A DNA stretch of 64,000 nucleotides from Amycolatopsis alkalitolerans (lineage in GTDB: Bacteria; Actinomycetota; Actinomycetes; Mycobacteriales; Pseudonocardiaceae): assembly GCF_006152065.1 (NCBI RefSeq), contig NZ_VDFW01000005.1, positions 124,001 through 188,000 of the forward strand, given 5' to 3'. Positions 18,459 through 27,410 of this stretch are shown piece after piece. A program made the position numbers and the translations under genes. The first letter of the stretch is position 1, and each line of letters opens with the position of its first letter. The notes under the pieces are model-generated. The model had not been told where the DNA came from, ran no database searches, and saw nothing but the letters and a program-made list of their open reading frames with translations.

Positions 18459-20528
18459 GTGACCGACGAGCTCTCCTTCCTCCGTAAGCAGGCCCGCACA
18501 CAGCGCTTCACCCTCGGCACGCCCCGCGAGTTCCGGGTGGCGCCCGACGGCTCCCGGCTGCTGTTCCTGCGATCGGAGTCGGGGGTGGACCGCCGCAACA
18601 GCCTGTGGGAACTGGATCTGAGCTCCGGCACCGAGACGAAGATCGTCGACGCCGTCGAGTTGCTGCCCGGCGAAGAGAACCTGCCGCCCGAGGAGCGGGC
18701 GCGCCGTGAACGGACCCGGGAGCGCGCGGGCGGCGTGGTCGGCTACGCGACCGACGCCGAGCTGCGTATCGCGGCTTTTTCCTTGTCCGGCAAGCTCTAC
18801 ACGGTCGATCTCGCCACCAAGGAGGTCGCCGAACTGGTCGAGGGCTCCGTCGTCGACCCGCGACCCAACCCGGCCGGCACGCATGTCGCCTACGTCCGTG
18901 ACCGGCGGCTGCGCGTGATCGAACTGGCGACCGGGCAGGACCGGCCGCTGGTCGACGAAGAGGGCGAGGACATCGCGTGGGGGCTCGCGGAGTTCATCGC
19001 GGGCGAGGAGATGGGGCGCACCCGCGGTTTCTGGTGGTCGCCGGACGGCACGAGCCTGCTCGTCGAGCGCAGCGACCGGGCGGGTGTCCCGCGCTGGACC
19101 ATCGCGGACCCGGCGAACCCCGGCGACTCTGTCAACACGGTCGCGTACCCGGCCGCCGGCGAGCAGAACGTCGGAGTGTCGCTGGCAATCCTCGGTCTCG
19201 ACGGCGCGCGCGTGGACGTGGAGAGCGGCGACTGGGAGTACCTGGCCGCGGTGCACTGGTCGGCCGGCGGGCCGCCGGTGCTCGCCGTGCAGAGCCGTGA
19301 CCAGCGGACGTTCGAGATCCACTCGGTGGATCCGGCCACCGGCGCCACGAAACTGCTGCACAGCGAAACCGATCCGCGGTGGGTCGAGCTGGTGCCCGGC
19401 GCACCCGCGTGGACGAGCGACGGGCGTCTCGTGCGTGTCAGCGCCGCGGATGGGAGCTACCGGTTGCTCATCGACGGGGTGCCGGTGACGGGGCCGGAGT
19501 TGCAGGTGCGCTCGGTGCTCGACGTCGGTGACGAGGTCCTTTTCAGCGCCTCCGGCGCGGATCCGACACAGATCCACGTCTACCGCACCGGCCCCGGTGG
19601 GGTCACGCGTCTGTCTGCTTCGGACGGTGTTCATGTCGGTGCCGGCACGGCGGAGGTGGCGGTGCTGTCGTCGTGGAGCCTGGCGCACAGCGGGCCGAAG
19701 GTCTCGGTGCTGCGTGACGGCTCGGTGCTGGAAATCCGGTCGTATCCCGAGGATCCGGGGATCGAACCGCGGCCGATCTGGCTCACCGTCGGCGAGCGTG
19801 GGCTGCGGGCGGCGTTGCTGCTGCCGAGCGGGTACGAACCGGGCACGAGCCTGCCGGTCTTGCTCGACCCCTACGGCGGGCCACATGCCCAGCGAGTGAT
19901 CCAGAGCCGCAACTCGTTCCTGACCTCGCAGTGGTTCGCCGACCAGGGTTTCGCGGTGCTCGTCACCGACGGCCGCGGCACGCCGGGGCGTGGGCCCGCG
20001 TGGGAGCGGGAGGTCTCGCGCGAACTGGCGAGTGTCACCTTGACCGACCAGGTGGACGCGCTGCACGCGGTCGCCGCCGAACATCCCGAGCTCGACCTGT
20101 CGCGGGTGGCGATCCGCGGCTGGTCCTACGGCGGGTACCTGTCCGCGCTGGCTGTGCTGCGGCGGCCGGACGTGATCCGGGCGGCGGTCGCGGGCGCTCC
20201 GGTCACCGATTGGACGCTGTACGACACCCACTACACCGAGCGCTATCTGGGCACACCGCAGGACGATCCGGCGGCCTACGAGCGGAATTCGCTGCTCGCC
20301 GACGCGGCGAACCTGGAGCGGTCGCTGCTGATCGTGCACGGCCTCGCGGACGACAACGTGTTCGTCGCGCATTCGCTGCGGCTGTCGTCGGCGCTGCTCG
20401 CGGCCGGGCGGGCGCATACGTTCCTGCCGCTGGTCGGGACGACGCATATGACCCCGCAGGATGAGGATCTCGCGGAGAACCTCATGAGGATGCAGGCGGA
20501 GTGGTTGCGGAAGGAGTTGGACGCGTGA
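18459..20528 (+). CDS. S9-family serine peptidase (dipeptidyl-peptidase IV-like)
   Basis: 689 residues without a signal peptide, so probably cytoplasmic. A DPP-IV-type beta-propeller occupies the first 450 or so residues (PDGSRLLFLRSESGVD, GFWWSPDGTSLL), followed by the peptidase S9 catalytic domain. The nucleophile is in IRGWSYGGYLSAL, the Asp in HGLADDNVF and the His in GTTHMTPQ. Starts with GTG. Its stop overlaps the start of the next gene as GTGA, so the two are co-translated. Confidence 0.9.
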   Translation: MTDELSFLRKQARTQRFTLGTPREFRVAPDGSRLLFLRSESGVDRRNSLWELDLSSGTETKIVDAVELLPGEENLPPEERARRERTRERAGGVVGYATDAELRIAAFSLSGKLYTVDLATKEVAELVEGSVVDPRPNPAGTHVAYVRDRRLRVIELATGQDRPLVDEEGEDIAWGLAEFIAGEEMGRTRGFWWSPDGTSLLVERSDRAGVPRWTIADPANPGDSVNTVAYPAAGEQNVGVSLAILGLDGARVDVESGDWEYLAAVHWSAGGPPVLAVQSRDQRTFEIHSVDPATGATKLLHSETDPRWVELVPGAPAWTSDGRLVRVSAADGSYRLLIDGVPVTGPELQVRSVLDVGDEVLFSASGADPTQIHVYRTGPGGVTRLSASDGVHVGAGTAEVAVLSSWSLAHSGPKVSVLRDGSVLEIRSYPEDPGIEPRPIWLTVGERGLRAALLLPSGYEPGTSLPVLLDPYGGPHAQRVIQSRNSFLTSQWFADQGFAVLVTDGRGTPGRGPAWEREVSRELASVTLTDQVDALHAVAAEHPELDLSRVAIRGWSYGGYLSALAVLRRPDVIRAAVAGAPVTDWTLYDTHYTERYLGTPQDDPAAYERNSLLADAANLERSLLIVHGLADDNVFVAHSLRLSSALLAAGRAHTFLPLVGTTHMTPQDEDLAENLMRMQAEWLRKELDA

Positions 20529-21475: not shown

Positions 21476-21482
21476 CCCGCCG

Positions 21483-21700
21483 CTCCGCGCCGGCGTGTTG
21501 GCTGCCCGCGCCGGCGTGTTGGCCGCTCGGGTCGGCGTGTTGGCCGCGTGTGCGGGTGTGTTGGCCGCTCGGGTCGGCGTGTTGGCCGCTCGGTCGGTGT
21601 TGGCTGCGTGTGCGGGTGTGTTGGTTCTTGCCCGGCCCCGTCGCAGCGGGCCAGCTCACTGCCGTCGCGGGCCAACACGCCCGCGTGGCGGACCAACACG
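21483..21700. repeat. 21-bp-period repeat array with inverted copies
   Basis: GTGTTGG begins units at 21495, 21516, 21537, 21558, 21579, 21597 and 21618, a strict 21-bp step with one 18-bp step. CCAACAC then appears in reverse at 21672 and 21693, again 21 bp apart. Units alternate between GTGTTGGCCGCTCGGGTCGGC and GTGTTGGCCGCGTGTGCGGGT types. The inverted copies let the transcript fold into long hairpins. The array begins 8 bp after the stop of the oxidoreductase gene and leaves the next promoter free. The remaining 100 bp up to the iron box hold nothing else I recognise. Confidence 0.85.
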
Positions 21701-21800
21701 GCGGGCGCACGCCACTCGATCGGAGCCGTTCACGACGGCACTTTTGTGGGAAAGTGCGCCGGAGGTGGTGCGAGCGGAGCCGCGGTATCCGTATGGTTGC

Positions 21801-21819
21801 TTAGCGTAGGCTTACCTAA
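21801..21819 (+). promoter_or_regulatory. Iron box (IdeR/DmdR1-type)
   Basis: TTAGCGTAGGCTTACCTAA closely matches the DtxR/IdeR/DmdR1 consensus TTAGGTTAGGCTAACCTAA. It lies 12 bp before the first gene of the siderophore operon. In the presence of iron the regulator is expected to block the operon. Confidence 0.88.
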
Positions 21820-21830
21820 GGGAGTGATCA

Positions 21831-23210
21831 ATGGGCGACTCGACGGCGCTGGCCGGTGGGCGGCAGGGGCACGAGCGGCTCGCGGAGCTGATTCCGTTGG
21901 TGCTACAAGGGTTGGCCGCGGGCACCGCCGAGCGCGCGGCGCCGGGACCGGCCGGTGGCCCCGCCCCGGTCGCGGCAAGCGTGGCCGCACTCGAACCCCT
22001 CGTCCCGGCGCGCGGCGTCGGCGCCGAGAAAGCGCTTTCAGAGCTGACCGCACTGCTGGCCGCCGGCTCGGTCGACCCCGCCGATCCGTGGTGTGCCGCC
22101 CACCTGCACTGCCCGCCGCTGGCCGTCGGGGTCGCGGCGGACGTGGCGGCCGGCGCCCTCAACCCGTCGATGGATTCCTGGGACCAGGCCCCGGTCGCGA
22201 GCGAACTGGAACGCGCCTTCCTCGCCGCGATCGCCCGCCAGTGCTACCCCGGCGCGTCCGAGCCCGACGCCGTCGTCACCACCGGCGGCACCGAGTCGAA
22301 CCTGCTCGCCCTCCTGCTGGCCCGCGAGCATCAACGCCAACCGGTCTGCGGTCGCAACGCCCATCACAGCGTTGCCCGTGCGGCGTGGGTGCTCGGACTG
22401 CGCACGCCGTTGCTCGTCGAGTGCGATGGCGAGCGCATGATCCCGGCGTCCCTCGACGCGGTACTGCGCGAAACCGGACCGGCGGTGGTGGTCGCGACCG
22501 CCGGTACCACCAACGCCGGCGAAATCGATCCACTCCGCGAGCTCGCGCGGATCTGTCGCCGACACGGTGCACGGTTGCATGTGGACGCAGCGTACGGCGG
22601 TTTGGCCTTGTGCAGCGAAACACTGCGCCCGCTGCTCGACGGGATCGACCAGGCCGACACGATCGCGCTCGACATGCACAAGTTCGGCTGGCAGTCCGTC
22701 GCCGCCGGTCTGTTCGCTGTCAGGGAAGCCGCGGACCTGAAAGCGCTTACCGTCCGCGCCGAGTATCTCAACGCGGATGACGACACCGAAGCGGGACTGC
22801 CGGACCTGCTCGGCCGTTCGATCCGCACTTCGCGCCGCCCCGACGCATTCCGGATGGCGGTGACCATGCGGGCCCTGGGCATCGACGGCGTGGGCGAACT
22901 GGTGGAACGCTGCTGCGCCACCGCGCGTGAGGTCGCTGACGCCGTCCGGCGGCACCCGGCCTTGGAGCTGTGGGGTGAGCCCACACTGTCCACTGTGCTC
23001 TTCCGGCCGCGGTTCGGCGACGTTGCGCGAGTCCGGCGTGCGCTCCTGGAGACCGGCACGGCGATCGTCGGGCGCGCGACGATGGCCCCAGGTGAGGTGT
23101 GGCTCAAGCTGACGCTGCTGCACCCGCACGCCAGCGCGGCAGACTACCTGGGCTTGCTGGACGCGGTCGCCGCCCGCGCACAGGCACCCGAAGGTGCGGT
23201 CGCGTCATGA
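21831..23210 (+). CDS. PLP-dependent diamino-acid decarboxylase (DesA-like) of siderophore operon
   Basis: 459 residues of the group II PLP decarboxylases. TGGTESNLLALLLARE, HHSVARAAWVLGL, HVDAAYGGLALCS and the PLP lysine Lys284 in DMHKFGWQSVA are the family marks. In siderophore loci (DesA, RhbB type) it makes cadaverine from lysine, or diaminopropane or putrescine from shorter diamino acids. ATG 21831 follows AAGGGAG. It heads a four-gene operon in which every junction overlaps by 4 bp. The exact amino acid is not predictable by eye; lysine or ornithine/diaminobutyrate are the candidates. Confidence 0.87.
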   Translation: MGDSTALAGGRQGHERLAELIPLVLQGLAAGTAERAAPGPAGGPAPVAASVAALEPLVPARGVGAEKALSELTALLAAGSVDPADPWCAAHLHCPPLAVGVAADVAAGALNPSMDSWDQAPVASELERAFLAAIARQCYPGASEPDAVVTTGGTESNLLALLLAREHQRQPVCGRNAHHSVARAAWVLGLRTPLLVECDGERMIPASLDAVLRETGPAVVVATAGTTNAGEIDPLRELARICRRHGARLHVDAAYGGLALCSETLRPLLDGIDQADTIALDMHKFGWQSVAAGLFAVREAADLKALTVRAEYLNADDDTEAGLPDLLGRSIRTSRRPDAFRMAVTMRALGIDGVGELVERCCATAREVADAVRRHPALELWGEPTLSTVLFRPRFGDVARVRRALLETGTAIVGRATMAPGEVWLKLTLLHPHASAADYLGLLDAVAARAQAPEGAVAS

Positions 23211-24487
23211 GGCTGGATCTCGCGGGAGCCGGGATCGGCCCGTTCAACCTGTCGCTCGCCGCGCTCGCCGAACCAGTGGCGGAGCTGAACGTCGCAATGT
23301 TCGAGCGTCGCAAGGAGTTCCGCTGGCATTCCGGCCTGCTCATCGAGGGCGCGACGATCCAGGTGCCCTTCCTCGCCGATCTCGTCACCCTCGCCGACCC
23401 CACCAGTCGATTGTCCTTTTTGAACTATCTCCGGGAGCATGGCCGGCTCTTTCCGTTCTACTTCGCCGAAAAGTTCCATCTCGAACGCACCGAGTACGAC
23501 GACTACTGCCGCTGGGTCGCCGAACGACTGCCAGGTTGCCATTTCGGGGTCGAGATCACCGGGATCGAGTGGCGAGAAAGCGCTTTCTGCCTGTCCACGA
23601 GCGAAGGCGCACCGGTCGTCGCCCGCAACGTCGTGCTCGGCATTGGCACGTCGCCCTGGGTGCCAAAACCCTTGCGCCCCTTGATATCCGATCCGGAGCT
23701 CCCGGTCGTGCACTCCGCGGACTACCTTGCCGAGCGGGAACGGCTGCTCACCGTGCCGAGCGTGACGGTCGTCGGCTCGGGGCAGTCGGGTGCGGAGGTC
23801 TTTCTCGATCTGCTGCGGCACCGCGACCACCCAAGCGGGCTGCGGTGGGTCGCGCGTACGTCCTCGTTCACCCCGATGGAGTACTCGAAGCTTGGGCTGG
23901 AACAGTTCACGCCGGACTACACATCGTTCTTTCACGGCCTCGATGAGTCCATACGCGACAGTCTGATTCCCGCGCAATGGCAGCTGTACAAGGGGATCGA
24001 CAGTGGCACGATCGCGGAGATCCACGAAGATCTGTACCGGAAGAGCATCGGCGGAACCTGGCCCGACGTCACCATGACGCCCGGGGTCGAGGTGGTCTCG
24101 GCAAGCGCCGAGAACGGCCGCATCGCGCTCGGCCTGCATCACCGCCAGCAGGGCACGAGCGCCGTTTGGCGCACCGATGCCGTCGTTTCCGCCACCGGCT
24201 ACACCGAGACCTCCCTCGAAGGGCTGCTCGGCCCGCTCGCCGACAGGCTGGTCACCGACGGGCAGGGGCGTCCGGTCGTTGAGCGGGATTACCGGCTGCG
24301 GCTCGACGGCGTGGCCGGGGCGATCTATGTGCAGAACGCCGAACGGCACACGCACGGGGTGGGCGCGCCGGACCTCGGGCTCGCGGCCTGGCGGGCGGCG
24401 TCGATCATCAACTCGGTCTGTGGTCGCGAGGTCTACCGCCTGCCCTCCCGCACCGCGTTCACCAGGTTCGGACTGGAGGAATCATGA
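23207..24487 (+). CDS. Diamine/lysine N-monooxygenase (SidA/IucD/PvdA family)
   Basis: 426 residues. The FAD motif GAGIGPFNLSLAAL is at the N-terminus, FRWHSGLLIEGATIQVPFLADLVTLADP is the family's signature region (residues about 40 to 67), the NADPH motif is VVGSGQSGAEVFLDLL, and ATGYTETS is the C-terminal D/ATGY motif. Such enzymes hydroxylate the terminal amine of lysine, ornithine or a diamine, giving the N-OH needed for a hydroxamate iron ligand. The ATG overlaps the decarboxylase stop (ATGA). The frame is open further upstream, but only inside the previous gene. Confidence 0.92.
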   Translation: MRLDLAGAGIGPFNLSLAALAEPVAELNVAMFERRKEFRWHSGLLIEGATIQVPFLADLVTLADPTSRLSFLNYLREHGRLFPFYFAEKFHLERTEYDDYCRWVAERLPGCHFGVEITGIEWRESAFCLSTSEGAPVVARNVVLGIGTSPWVPKPLRPLISDPELPVVHSADYLAERERLLTVPSVTVVGSGQSGAEVFLDLLRHRDHPSGLRWVARTSSFTPMEYSKLGLEQFTPDYTSFFHGLDESIRDSLIPAQWQLYKGIDSGTIAEIHEDLYRKSIGGTWPDVTMTPGVEVVSASAENGRIALGLHHRQQGTSAVWRTDAVVSATGYTETSLEGLLGPLADRLVTDGQGRPVVERDYRLRLDGVAGAIYVQNAERHTHGVGAPDLGLAAWRAASIINSVCGREVYRLPSRTAFTRFGLEES

Positions 24488-26220
24488 ACGAGCGTTCGTG
24501 GCGGCAGGCCGGCTCTTTCATCGTGCACAAGATGCTCGGCGAACTCTCCTACGAGGGGTTGTTCGAACCCGAGCCGGTCGAGGGCGGCTGGCGCCTGCGC
24601 CTGCCCGGCGACGTCACCTACGAATTCGAGGCGCGTCGGGGCGCGTTCGACTCATGGACCGTTGTCACAGGAACGGCTACACGGCAAGGCGTTCCCGCCG
24701 ATGATCCGCGGATGCTCGTCGTGGATGCGCGGACCGTCCTCGGACTTTCGGGCCTGCGGCTGGCGGACGTGCTGTCGGAGCTCACCGCGACCGTCGCGAA
24801 CGAGGCTGCGCGCCTCGCGCACGCGCCGAGCGCCGCCGAACTGTCCATGATGGACTACAACCTTGCCGATGGACGGCTGACCGGGCATCCGCGCATCGTC
24901 GTCAACAAGGGCCGGGTCGGTTTCTCGATGCGGGACAGGCAGAAGTACGCGCCCGAATCGGGCAAGCCGTTCCGGCTGCGCTGGTTCGGCGTGCATCGCG
25001 AGTACGCCCAGTACCGGTCCATCGCGGACCTGGACGAGCAGACCTTGCTGCGGCAGGAGCTCGACCCCGATCAGGTGGCGGAGTTCCAGGCGAAGGCGGA
25101 TCCGGCGGAGTATGTCTTCGTTCCGGTGCATCCGTGGCAGGCCGACGAGATCGTCGGCACCCTCTATGCCGGGGAACTCGCGACGGGCGCGTTGATCGAC
25201 CTCGGTGAAGGCCGCGACGAGTACAGTCCACATCAGACGGTGCGAACGCTGGCGAACATGAGCACGCCAAACCGGCGAGACGTGAAGACGGCTGTCTCGG
25301 TTCGCAACACGCTCGTCTACCGTGGTCTGGACTCGGCGGCAACGCTTGCCGGGCCCGCGGTCACCGCCTGGCTGAAGCGGATCAATGCCGCGGATCCCTT
25401 GCTGTCGGGAGAATATCGGTTCGAACTGCTCGGCGAGGTGGCGAGCGTGTCCGTGCGGCATCCGCTGTTCGGCGCGCTCGAAGAACTCCCGTACCGGTTC
25501 CACGAAACGCTGGGCGCGTTGTGGCGAGAACCCTTGACGCAGCGGCTGGCCGAGGGTGAGCAAGCGCTTTCCTTCGCCGCGCTGCCCTATCGCGATCTCC
25601 AGGGCCAAACCGTGATCACCGGGCTCATCCAGCGCAGCGGCCTCGGCACCGAAGGGTGGTGTGCACGGATTTTCGACCTCCTGCTTACTCCGTTGCTGCA
25701 ATGGTTGCTGCGCTACGGAGTCGGATTCTGCCCGCACGGCCAGAACCTGGTCCTCATCGTCGATCGAACCGGTCGCCCTGTGCGCGTCGCGATCAAGGAT
25801 TTCGCGCAGGGCGTGGATCTGCTCGACGAAGACCTCGAATGCTACGGCCTGCTCGATCCGGACGCGGAAATGCTGCGCTGGCCGGCGCACCTGCTCGCCC
25901 AGTCGCTGTTCAGTTCGGTGTTTTCGGGGCAGTTCCGGTTCTGGGCCGAGATCATCTCCGATGATCTGGCGTTCCCCCGCGCTCGCTTCTGGGCCCTGGT
26001 GCGCGACGTCGTCGGCGGGTACCGCAAGGACAATCCCGATGTGGCCGCCCGCTTCGACGCGTGCCGCCTGTTCGCGCCGGACGTCGAGCGCGTCACGCTG
26101 AACCGCGAACACCTGGCGGGCGGCGGGTTCGACAAGGTCGAGCGCGACGACGAGTTCGACGTTCGCTGGGGGCGGGTGCCGAATCCGTTGCATGCTCCCG
26201 ATCCGGACGGTGCGTGGTGA
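24484..26220 (+). CDS. NRPS-independent siderophore synthetase, IucA/IucC family (DesD-like)
   Basis: 578 residues, the usual length. The family motifs are HPRIVVNKGRVGFS, FVPVHPWQADEIV, SPHQTVRTLANM, KTAVSVRNTLVYRG and, in the C-terminal FhuF-like part, CPHGQNLVLIVDR and VAIKDFAQGVDLLDED. The enzyme adenylates a carboxylate and joins it to an amine or hydroxylamine. In desferrioxamine synthesis DesD links and cyclises N-hydroxy-N-succinyl-cadaverine units. Coupled by ATGA to the monooxygenase and by GTGA to the next gene. Confidence 0.93.
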   Translation: MNERSWRQAGSFIVHKMLGELSYEGLFEPEPVEGGWRLRLPGDVTYEFEARRGAFDSWTVVTGTATRQGVPADDPRMLVVDARTVLGLSGLRLADVLSELTATVANEAARLAHAPSAAELSMMDYNLADGRLTGHPRIVVNKGRVGFSMRDRQKYAPESGKPFRLRWFGVHREYAQYRSIADLDEQTLLRQELDPDQVAEFQAKADPAEYVFVPVHPWQADEIVGTLYAGELATGALIDLGEGRDEYSPHQTVRTLANMSTPNRRDVKTAVSVRNTLVYRGLDSAATLAGPAVTAWLKRINAADPLLSGEYRFELLGEVASVSVRHPLFGALEELPYRFHETLGALWREPLTQRLAEGEQALSFAALPYRDLQGQTVITGLIQRSGLGTEGWCARIFDLLLTPLLQWLLRYGVGFCPHGQNLVLIVDRTGRPVRVAIKDFAQGVDLLDEDLECYGLLDPDAEMLRWPAHLLAQSLFSSVFSGQFRFWAEIISDDLAFPRARFWALVRDVVGGYRKDNPDVAARFDACRLFAPDVERVTLNREHLAGGGFDKVERDDEFDVRWGRVPNPLHAPDPDGAW

Positions 26221-27410
26221 AAGCGCTTCCAGCGGACGTTTCGCGCGTGCTGTTGCTGGTGCCGGACCCGCACGCGCGGTTCGCGGCAGTCGAACTGTCA
26301 CGCGAGTTCGTCGAGGACGAGGTGCGAGGCGCAGATTACGGCTTGTGCACGTACGTTTTCGCCTGGGATCCCGAGCGAGAGCCTGTCTCGTCGTTGTCAC
26401 GCTATCTCGGCGGTTACGGGGACTTACGAATGCGGCCGGATTTCGCGAGCGTGACGCCGATCGAGAACGGGGTGTACGCGGTCGTCTGCGATGTCGAATG
26501 GCCGAGCGGTGAACCTGTCCGCGTCGCACCCCGGCAGGTGCTGGCCGACGAGCTGGATGCCTTGGGGAAGCTGGGTTTCACCCCGTCGATCGGGATCGAG
26601 CACGAGGTCACGTTCCTCGACCCGGACGGCGAGCCGCTGACTGGACACGGCGTCGACTACGCGGTCGGCGGCACCGAGCGCTTGCGGCCGCTGTTGCGGG
26701 ATCTGCGAACGAAGCTGGCTCCCCTCGGCGTCGAATCCGCGCGAGGGGAGTGCCACCCCGGGCAGTACGAGATCGTGCTGCGCCACCGCGAAGCCGTCGC
26801 GGCCTGCGACGATGCCATGCTGCAGCAGTTGATCGTGCGTGCCGCGGCAGCCGAACACGGTGTGACCGCGAACTATCTCGCCGCGCCGCGGACCGGTCAG
26901 GGCAATTCGTGTCATGTGCACCTGTCACTGTCGCCGCCCGCGCCGGAGGCGTTTCTGGCCGGGGTACTGGCCGAGGCGCGGGCGCTCACGGCGATCTGGG
27001 CTCCGACCTGGAACAGCTACGTGCGGCTGCGCACCGGACCGTTCTCGCCGCGCTCGATCCGCTGGGGCACCGACGACCGGACGTCAGCGGTGCGGATCGC
27101 GGGGCGCGGGGCCGGGAGGCGGCTGGAGTTCCGGTTCGCGGGCGCGGACGCGCAGGTGCACCTCGTGGTGGCGGCACTGCTCGCGGCCGGCAGGGCCGGG
27201 ATCGAGGCGGGACTGACGCCGCCGCTGGAAGGCGAGGAAGTGGGCACGCTGTGCCTCACGCCCTGGGAGGCGCTCGCCGCGTTGCGCGAAAGCAGGGTGT
27301 TGAGCGCGGAGTTGGTGGAGCATCAGTCGGCGCTGCTGCGAGCCGAGATCGACGCGGGCTGCGACGCGGTCACGGACTGGCAGCGGCGGCGCGGGGCGCT
27401 GCGGGCCTGA
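26217..27410 (+). CDS. Glutamine-synthetase-like gamma-glutamyl ligase of siderophore operon
   Basis: 397 residues from GTG 26217, which overlaps the synthetase stop. It has a GS beta-grasp N-terminus (RPDFASVTPIENGVYAVVCDVEWPSGEPVRVAP lies at about 70 to 102) and a GS catalytic domain: GIEHEVTFLD, ESARGECHPGQYEIVLRH, GQGNSCHVHLSLS and RRLEFRFAGADAQVHL. It is shorter than true glutamine synthetase (about 440 to 470) and closer to the GS-like enzymes that attach glutamate to amines (PuuA type). Its place in the operon suggests gamma-glutamylation of the diamine or N-hydroxydiamine, perhaps replacing the missing acyltransferase. That function is inference. Confidence 0.83.
   Translation: MKALPADVSRVLLLVPDPHARFAAVELSREFVEDEVRGADYGLCTYVFAWDPEREPVSSLSRYLGGYGDLRMRPDFASVTPIENGVYAVVCDVEWPSGEPVRVAPRQVLADELDALGKLGFTPSIGIEHEVTFLDPDGEPLTGHGVDYAVGGTERLRPLLRDLRTKLAPLGVESARGECHPGQYEIVLRHREAVAACDDAMLQQLIVRAAAAEHGVTANYLAAPRTGQGNSCHVHLSLSPPAPEAFLAGVLAEARALTAIWAPTWNSYVRLRTGPFSPRSIRWGTDDRTSAVRIAGRGAGRRLEFRFAGADAQVHLVVAALLAAGRAGIEAGLTPPLEGEEVGTLCLTPWEALAALRESRVLSAELVEHQSALLRAEIDAGCDAVTDWQRRRGALRA

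Follow-up and report, generated by a model that had tools for sequence, protein, structure and literature searches.

A predicted iron-controlled siderophore operon of Amycolatopsis alkalitolerans with a glutamine synthetase-like ligase at the expected place of an acyltransferase

The operon and its conservation

We analyzed a stretch of 64,000 nucleotides from Amycolatopsis alkalitolerans (assembly GCF_006152065.1, contig NZ_VDFW01000005.1, positions 124,001 to 188,000 of the forward strand; hereafter, the window) that contains a compact group of four genes preceded by a putative iron box. The genes encode a pyridoxal phosphate (PLP)-dependent decarboxylase, an amine N-hydroxylase, an IucA/IucC synthetase of the type involved in siderophore biosynthesis independent of nonribosomal peptide synthetases (NRPS-independent siderophore, NIS), and a protein of the glutamine synthetase (GS) family. 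The order of these features is as follows.

21801-21819, + strand: iron box TTAGCGTAGGCTTACCTAA, 11 bp before the decarboxylase start, with 3 mismatches to a 19-base consensus
21831-23210, + strand: PLP decarboxylase gene (459 aa)
23207-24487, + strand: flavin-dependent amine N-hydroxylase gene (426 aa)
24484-26220, + strand: IucA/IucC (NIS) synthetase gene, type C by similarity (578 aa)
26217-27410, + strand: gene for the GS-like putative ligase (397 aa, GTG start)

Each of the three gene junctions in the window is a 4-bp overlap, and all four products score over the respective Pfam cut-offs (Pyridoxal_deC, 161.7 bits; Lys_Orn_oxgnase, 357 bits; IucA_IucC (PF04183), 239.2 bits, together with FhuF (PF06276), 98.8 bits; Gln-synt_C, 166.6 bits), in full agreement with the gene families and overlaps described in an earlier note on this DNA that was made from the sequence alone. 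The iron box, presumably an operator of the IdeR/DmdR1 type, is the sole match in the window, at no more than 3 mismatches, to the 19-base sequence that we take to be the consensus of such sites; none of 100 shuffled sequences contained a match.

Peptides of the GS-like protein alone were used to scan 84,980 species, and the best 80 of 85 relatives, which represent 78 distinct loci, were retained. All 78 loci, although found by GS peptides only, contain an NIS gene. The closer relatives, denoted clade A, comprise 43 loci with GS identity of 54-87% in the scan, and the GS, NIS, hydroxylase and decarboxylase genes are present in every one of them. Clade B consists of 35 more distant loci (L046-L080; GS 35-40% identical), of which 35 encode an NIS synthetase, 33 a hydroxylase and 32 a decarboxylase, these counts being lower bounds because L057, L058 and L065 lie on short contigs. 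Among 200 genomes of the family to which the window belongs, a GS of this type (at least 58% identity) was detected in 29, and the same 29 encode the matching NIS synthetase (at least 67%), with the two genes adjacent in all 29 as read by eye from the coordinates. The 78 loci and the 29 genomes together rule out a chance neighborhood of the GS gene.

The compact arrangement is partly shared by the relatives. Among the 42 clade A loci with readable frames (L035 was dropped, and start codons were chosen automatically), the 4-bp overlap recurs at the decarboxylase-hydroxylase junction in 36 and at the hydroxylase-NIS junction in 32. Of the 43 orthologous clade A loci, 38 have an iron box with up to 6 mismatches in a 410-base segment around the start of the decarboxylase gene, as opposed to 3 of 215 length-matched random stretches from these loci, which argues that the box in the window is not a chance match. 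In clade B, a box with up to 4 mismatches is present in 26 of the 35 loci, compared to none in shuffled and reversed controls. The iron box that the earlier note placed before the operon thus stands as a single, conserved site, and the operator is predicted to be iron-responsive; the view that the four genes constitute one iron-controlled operon is supported.

The missing acyltransferase and the GS-like ligase

None of the 43 clade A loci contains a match of the DesC or RhbD type. The genome that harbors the window (84 contigs, 6.78 Mb, completeness listed as 100) has no match over the cut-off to Acetyltransf_8 (PF13523), the family of DesC (best 25.3 bits, cut-off 27); its one match to IucA/IucC (PF04183) is the synthetase of the operon itself. 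The same two families were searched for in 23 of the 43 clade A genomes. Exactly one NIS gene was found in 19 of these, so that one enzyme must carry out the assembly, and when the window genome is included, 20 of 24 genomes lack a second NIS gene. Acetyltransf_8 matches of at least 60 bits occur in 5 of the 23 genomes, three of them Streptomyces. Seven such places were inspected. L103 and L106 are without an NIS gene in the vicinity, and the other five are close to separate NIS genes, in one case as part of a complete DesABCD set. The Streptomyces genome that contains locus L042 holds both the GS operon and a desferrioxamine cluster, which indicates that the two are different systems.

As a control, 148 genomes of the class were searched with DesD as the query; 45 of them gave matches, at 47 places, and the best 30 places were analyzed. 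A DesC-type acyltransferase gene adjoins the NIS gene in all 29 DesD-like loci, the thirtieth being rhizobactin-like, and a GS of this type is present in none of the 30; the 20 control loci with longer flanks invariably contain the acyltransferase and never the GS. Given that DesC accompanies DesD in 29 of 29 loci devoid of GS and that neither DesC nor RhbD is found in any of the 43 clade A loci, the GS and the acyltransferase appear to replace each other, with the exception of Crossiella (see below).

Trees of the decarboxylase, hydroxylase and NIS synthetase were constructed by a quick method; besides the window and reference sequences, they contain 11 loci each from clade A (of 43) and clade B (of 35). 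In the NIS tree, 20 desferrioxamine-type sequences fall on one side (support 100), and both clades fall on the other side together with the rhizobactin-type enzymes. The decarboxylases of clades A and B group together, apart from 17 of 18 desferrioxamine sequences (100), and so do the hydroxylases (99), although in this case the split from desferrioxamine is weakly supported (78). These three trees thus place the window operon closer to clade B than to the desferrioxamine clusters. A plain desferrioxamine pathway is ruled out by the lack of the DesC family and by the separate NIS lineage. The window synthetase is of type C by similarity: its matches in the PDB are DfoC (291 bits), DesD (270-287), AlcC (287), IucC (276), AsbB (173), IucA (38) and AcsD (23).

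The active site of the GS-like protein was compared in 44 clade A sequences (the 43 loci and the window) and 34 clade B sequences (L079, which has no readable frame, was dropped). The metal-binding residues E129, E131, E212, E220, H269 and E357, the glutamate-binding residues G265, R321 and R359, and the phosphate residues R339 (a role that we assume) and R344 are conserved in all 44 and all 34 sequences; E131 (GS numbering) also counts among the glutamate ligands, kept in 44 of 44 clade A sequences. By contrast, the flap residue E327 is replaced by F throughout clade A (44/44) and by F or Y throughout clade B (34/34), Y179 is lost in all clade A (44/44) and clade B sequences, and N264 is not kept in clade A, being changed in GlnA4 and PuuA as well. 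The D50 column, in which 13 of the 44 clade A sequences have D, is not reliably aligned. The residue roles follow excerpts of the work on GlnA4 and GlnA3 (PMC6529630, PMC5403932), according to which the flap glutamate E327 is needed for glutamine synthesis; in the GlnA4 excerpt, this enzyme gamma-glutamylates ethanolamine in vitro and carries F in place of the flap glutamate, E in place of N264 and, depending on the model, V or D in place of Y179 (PMC6529630). With the catalytic residues kept and the ammonium site lost, the most plausible reading of the window protein is a gamma-glutamyl ligase whose acceptor is larger than ammonia, and its active-site signature predicts a gamma-glutamyl-amine ligase, consistent with the PuuA-type activity suggested in the earlier note. 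The best NCBIfam model is gamma-glutamylputrescine synthetase (NF045547; 140.1 bits, under the curated cut-off of 650). A degenerate GS is ruled out because the tested catalytic residues, N264 excepted, are intact.

The window genome also encodes a second relevant member of the family, 41% identical to the operon GS and labeled GlnA4-like by its flap F and the E at the place of N264:

G000:C30:39435-40718 (L095; G000 is the window genome): GlnA4-like paralogue, about 8 kb from the iron-box site C30:31279

The genes near this paralogue include ones that resemble, by eye, the glycine cleavage T-protein and serine dehydratase. A GS tree was built from the window protein, sequences of 10 of the 43 clade A loci and 12 of the 35 clade B loci, six GS sequences that are references or the genome's own, and 17 additional GS genes, two of which (L181 and L182) were labeled clade B because they are near an NIS gene. 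Clade B GS groups with the GlnA4-like paralogue of many genomes, including that of the window genome (100/99), and clade A GS forms a deep, separate branch.

The surroundings of the operon were surveyed in the 44 clade A loci, the window included. No conserved acyltransferase outside the operon was recognized by eye among the 14 commonest families of open reading frames (ORFs) in the 5 kb flanks; the leading families, named by eye, are prolyl-oligopeptidase-like (33 loci) and LLM-type oxidoreductase-like (17 loci). The prolyl-oligopeptidase-like gene of the window (18459-20528) is located upstream of the operon, as are its counterparts (33 of the 44 loci, the window counted), which suggests that the chromosomal position of the operon is kept. 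Directly before the operon there is a tandem array of a 21-base unit (21479-21624; 5.4 copies, 79% matches), with imperfect inverted copies at 21649-21704; a 30-base core is present twice in the array, and one further copy, with 3 mismatches, is located elsewhere in the genome.

Outside the operon, the window genome contains five iron-box sites at no more than 3 mismatches. The adjoining genes match VIT1, FhuF_C, ABC_tran (in a short frame) and DUF2470, and at the fifth site, C34:222412, a gene of the arylamine N-acetyltransferase family (Acetyltransf_2, PF00797; 209.8 bits) adjoins the box:

L087 4001-4870 (G000:C34, box at 222412): the only PF00797 gene of the genome, with its 3' end 87 bp from the box

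The 3' end of the PF00797 gene faces this box, which immediately precedes another gene, one without a Pfam match. The earlier note had named a desC-like gene under the same iron control as the finding that would count against it; no gene of the DesC family was found over the cut-off in the genome, but one box adjoins the PF00797 gene, and further acyltransferase families were not searched genome-wide.

A possible biosynthetic route and its rivals

The clade B clusters resemble the rhizobactin cluster of Sinorhizobium meliloti, where tblastn gives the order aminotransferase, decarboxylase, type-A NIS, acetyltransferase, hydroxylase, NIS (the rhizobactin gene names are those that we take to apply, the record being without annotation there). 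In L050, L052, L054, L060 and L063, the order is aminotransferase, decarboxylase, type-A NIS, hydroxylase, NIS and then GS, with no RhbD-like gene. A diaminobutyrate-type aminotransferase is encoded in 14 of the 35 clade B loci, and 31 of the 35 have a second PLP decarboxylase, of the ornithine/diaminopimelate type, which, by analogy with SbnH, the decarboxylase that acts on such an intermediate in staphyloferrin B, might use a glutamyl or citryl intermediate as its substrate. An RhbD-like acetyltransferase is present in 2 of the 35 loci, both from Crossiella (L046, L047), where it sits with NIS genes on the opposite strand. Additionally, a short GNAT-like protein (L069 1455-2045; Acetyltransf_6, 23.3 bits, cut-off 22) precedes the decarboxylase in 13 of the 35 clade B loci, mostly Nocardiopsis.

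In two clade A loci, both from Streptomyces (L036 and L042), an upstream aminotransferase ORF overlaps the decarboxylase ORF by 4 bp, as called, and is itself preceded by FecCD-type transporter genes; it is a diaminobutyrate-2-oxoglutarate transaminase by TIGR00709 (512.2 and 506.5 bits, cut-off 401.6). Thirteen further matches to the aminotransferase query in clade A show no more than about 30% identity and are located apart from the operon, and the window operon itself has no aminotransferase gene. The window genome encodes EctB (636.8 bits, cut-off 552.2), adjoining an ectoine synthase (198.9 bits), so that diaminobutyrate can be made. Among the NCBIfam models, the decarboxylase scores best with DABADecarRhbB, the model of the diaminobutyrate decarboxylase RhbB, at 252.8 bits, a long way short of the cut-off of 900, and the best one for the N-hydroxylase is a putative histamine N-monooxygenase (418.7 bits, below the cut-off of 700), with PDB matches to 6xbb (346.5 bits), the putrescine N-hydroxylase 7us3 (300.2) and the desferrioxamine-pathway hydroxylase 5o8p (298.8). 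Because the nearest relatives are rhizobactin-like, with a diaminobutyrate-type aminotransferase in 14 of 35, and two Streptomyces operons add one, 1,3-diaminopropane seems likelier than the cadaverine of the earlier note, which finds no support here; we favor this diamine without regarding it as shown.

The gene set, the iron box, the conservation, the missing DesC-family gene and the ligase signature are read from sequence; which diamine is used, which nitrogen is acylated and how the units are assembled we infer. On balance, and by a small measure, we consider it probable that the operon directs the NRPS-independent synthesis of a hydroxamate siderophore, with a GS-family ligase in place of the acyl-CoA transferase. 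The PLP decarboxylase would produce a diamine, most likely 1,3-diaminopropane from 2,4-diaminobutyrate, which EctB could supply, and the flavoenzyme would hydroxylate one of its amines. The GS-like enzyme would then activate glutamate as gamma-glutamyl phosphate and transfer it to the hydroxylamine nitrogen; most likely, this gamma-glutamylation of the N-hydroxydiamine does the job of the acyltransferase, a step that we place, from its position, where DesC or RhbD would acylate. The resulting N-hydroxy-N-(gamma-glutamyl)diamine hydroxamate would have a free alpha-carboxylate, an alpha-amine and a primary amine, and a DesD-like enzyme requires just such a carboxylate and amine. The carboxylate could be adenylated by the single type-C NIS synthetase, which would join the units head to tail in the manner of DesD and yield an oligomer, linear or cyclic, such as a trimer. 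With 1,3-diaminopropane, the calculated mass of the glutamylated unit is 219.1219 Da, and a cyclic trimer would have an [M+H]+ of 604.3413 (657.2528 in the ferric form), compared to 646.3883 with putrescine and 688.4352 with cadaverine. The glutamyl hydroxamate that the earlier note proposed remains the simplest product, and the GS stands at the place where an acyltransferase would be expected.

Several observations weigh against this scheme. With starts chosen automatically, no more than 4 of the 42 clade A relatives show the 4-bp overlap between the NIS and GS genes. Some weak Acetyltransf_8 match over the low cut-off is present in 20 of the 23 clade A genomes, although these matches were set aside as general GNATs because 18 of the 23 have none of at least 60 bits. 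RhbB of S. meliloti groups, on a long branch, with the desferrioxamine decarboxylases, which leaves gene linkage (2 of the 43 clade A loci, 14 of the 35 clade B loci) as the basis for the assignment to diaminobutyrate. Both Crossiella loci hold the GS and the RhbD-like gene together, and their product may accordingly have two different arms. The GS tree rejects a single origin of the clade A and clade B enzymes (AU test, p = 0.016, long branches); two separate recruitments are possible, a point that the long branches make unsure, and clade B may be only an analogy to clade A. Three further points bear on particular alternatives: PuuA and GlnA4 act on primary amines, so that the ligase may acylate the amine and not the hydroxylamine; the NIS synthetase groups with citrate-using rhizobactin-type enzymes and not with DesD, which weakens the proposed last step; and the PF00797 gene, not DesC-like but an acyltransferase, ends 87 bp from an iron box, which takes some weight from the GS-dependent route in favor of an accessory GS.

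Because 20 of 24 genomes have no other NIS gene, self-condensation is our first guess for the assembly, and a citrate-linked product is its main rival. In this alternative, which we deem unlikely but deserving of attention, the gamma-glutamyl hydroxamate is made as proposed, and the NIS enzyme joins two arms to citrate, one enzyme catalyzing both condensations, to yield a glutamyl analogue of schizokinen, with a calculated [M+H]+ of 595.257. The grouping of the window synthetase with rhizobactin-type NIS, apart from the desferrioxamine enzymes, and the rhizobactin-like makeup of the clade B clusters speak for it. Free citrate is normally activated by type A NIS enzymes, and the window enzyme is of type C by similarity, with 38 bits for IucA and 23 for AcsD versus 270-291 bits for DesD, AlcC, DfoC and IucC, which, together with the 20 of 24 genomes, its own included, that lack a second NIS gene, argues against citrate. 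That a single synthetase can suffice has a precedent in Ralstonia pickettii, where, in the excerpt of the report, the sufficiency of one NIS synthetase for rhizoferrin was confirmed by expression (PMC7857480).

The remaining alternatives concern the ligase. The GS could glutamylate the primary amine, as PuuA does, and the NIS enzyme would form the hydroxamate, with the hydroxylamine of the next unit attacking the activated alpha-carboxylate of the glutamyl group; NIS enzymes accept hydroxylamine in assays. DesC and RhbD acylate the hydroxylamine in their standard pathways, and the occurrence of the GS precisely where such an enzyme is absent makes this arrangement decidedly unlikely in our estimation, even though PuuA of Escherichia coli is annotated as a glutamate-putrescine ligase and GlnA3 and GlnA4, according to excerpts of the respective papers, glutamylate polyamines and ethanolamine (PMC5403932, PMC6529630). 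An accessory GS, engaged in polyamine disposal or nitrogen supply, with an ordinary hydroxamate made by another acyltransferase, such as one of the arylamine type, would fit the role of GS-like enzymes of Streptomyces in polyamine and ethanolamine catabolism, as described in the excerpts available, and the PF00797 gene that adjoins the iron box at C34:222412. However, the PF00797 gene has its 3' end toward that box, the gene directly after the box is a different one, the flank survey of the 44 loci revealed no acyltransferase by eye among its 14 families, and the strict linkage (in all 43 close loci and all 29 genomes), the shared iron box and the lack of a catabolic gene in the operon render such a role very unlikely. 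Finally, the ligase might form the hydroxamate with another acid, such as succinate, and thus yield an ordinary succinyl or related hydroxamate; this would supply DesD-like substrates without CoA, but the glutamate ligands E131, G265, R321 and R359 are kept in all 44 clade A sequences (N264 is not), and we consider this version highly improbable.

If the GS-dependent route is correct, it offers a real chance of new chemistry. As a more daring proposal, which we put forward tentatively and rate somewhat below an even chance, Actinobacteria might possess a second hydroxamate route, with ATP- and glutamate-dependent acylation by GS-family ligases that were recruited perhaps twice, and the clade A product might be an oligomer of N-hydroxy-N-(gamma-glutamyl)-1,3-diaminopropane, perhaps a macrocyclic trimer. 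Such a ring would bear free amines, and its short diamine would be offset by the longer diacid: by our own count, a 1,3-diaminopropane unit would give a backbone repeat of 10 atoms, as in putrebactin, compared to 11 in desferrioxamine. The hydroxamate-forming step of NIS siderophores would then not be tied to acyl-CoA, a ligase family from central nitrogen metabolism would have become a siderophore enzyme, and the free amines would be handles for conjugates. The chemistry would be predicted for a siderophore family across Amycolatopsis, Actinokineospora, Actinophytocola and some Streptomyces, and also for the analogous clade B clusters of Nocardiopsis, Nonomuraea, Micromonospora and others; if annotated by similarity alone, such clusters would be labeled desferrioxamine-like or rhizobactin-like, and the GS chemistry would be overlooked. 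In the titles and abstract openings that were covered, with most subscription journals outside the scope, we found no GS-like gene in an NIS siderophore pathway. In the excerpts of two papers, the GS wording concerns nitrogen assimilation or a reference (PMC8869415, PMC11767460); fradiamine is, by the excerpt of its report, a citrate siderophore (PMC6836290), for which no gene cluster was found, and albisporachelin, likewise by excerpt, is built from ornithine hydroxamates (PMC6024995). Work on DesD yielded no pocket residues usable for a comparison (PMC9571020). For triabactin, an NIS gene is reported with an MFS (major facilitator superfamily) and a receptor gene, and the wording "glutamine synthetase" does not occur in the paper (PMC10080011).

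Comparison with known systems

Like GlnA4 and PuuA, the window protein belongs to the GS enzyme family, keeps the metal, ATP and glutamate residues and has lost the ammonium site, with E327 replaced, as it is by F in GlnA4 and by Y in PuuA. Unlike these catabolic enzymes, it is encoded in an iron-box operon together with siderophore genes and is shorter (397 aa). Classical GS is known to place a gamma-glutamyl group on hydroxylamine, giving an iron(III)-binding hydroxamate that is read as its ferric complex; what serves there as an assay is proposed here as a biological step on an N-alkyl hydroxylamine.

With the desferrioxamine systems (DesABCD/DfoJAC), the operon shares the decarboxylase, the amine N-hydroxylase, the type-C NIS synthetase and the presence of a single NIS gene per cluster; it differs by the GS-like ligase, the lack of DesC and an NIS synthetase from a separate lineage. 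The view of the earlier note that the operon copies the desferrioxamine logic finds no support in the trees, the lineage being separate for the NIS synthetase (100) and, with respect to 17 of 18 desferrioxamine sequences, for the decarboxylase, and weakly so for the hydroxylase (78). The rhizobactin 1021/schizokinen system (RhbABCDEF) is similar in that its NIS enzymes group with that of the window and that two of the 43 clade A loci, both from Streptomyces, and 14 of the 35 clade B loci pair the decarboxylase with a diaminobutyrate-type aminotransferase; in contrast to that system, the window operon encodes a GS and no RhbD acetyltransferase, and the window genome has no RhbC-like type-A NIS synthetase.

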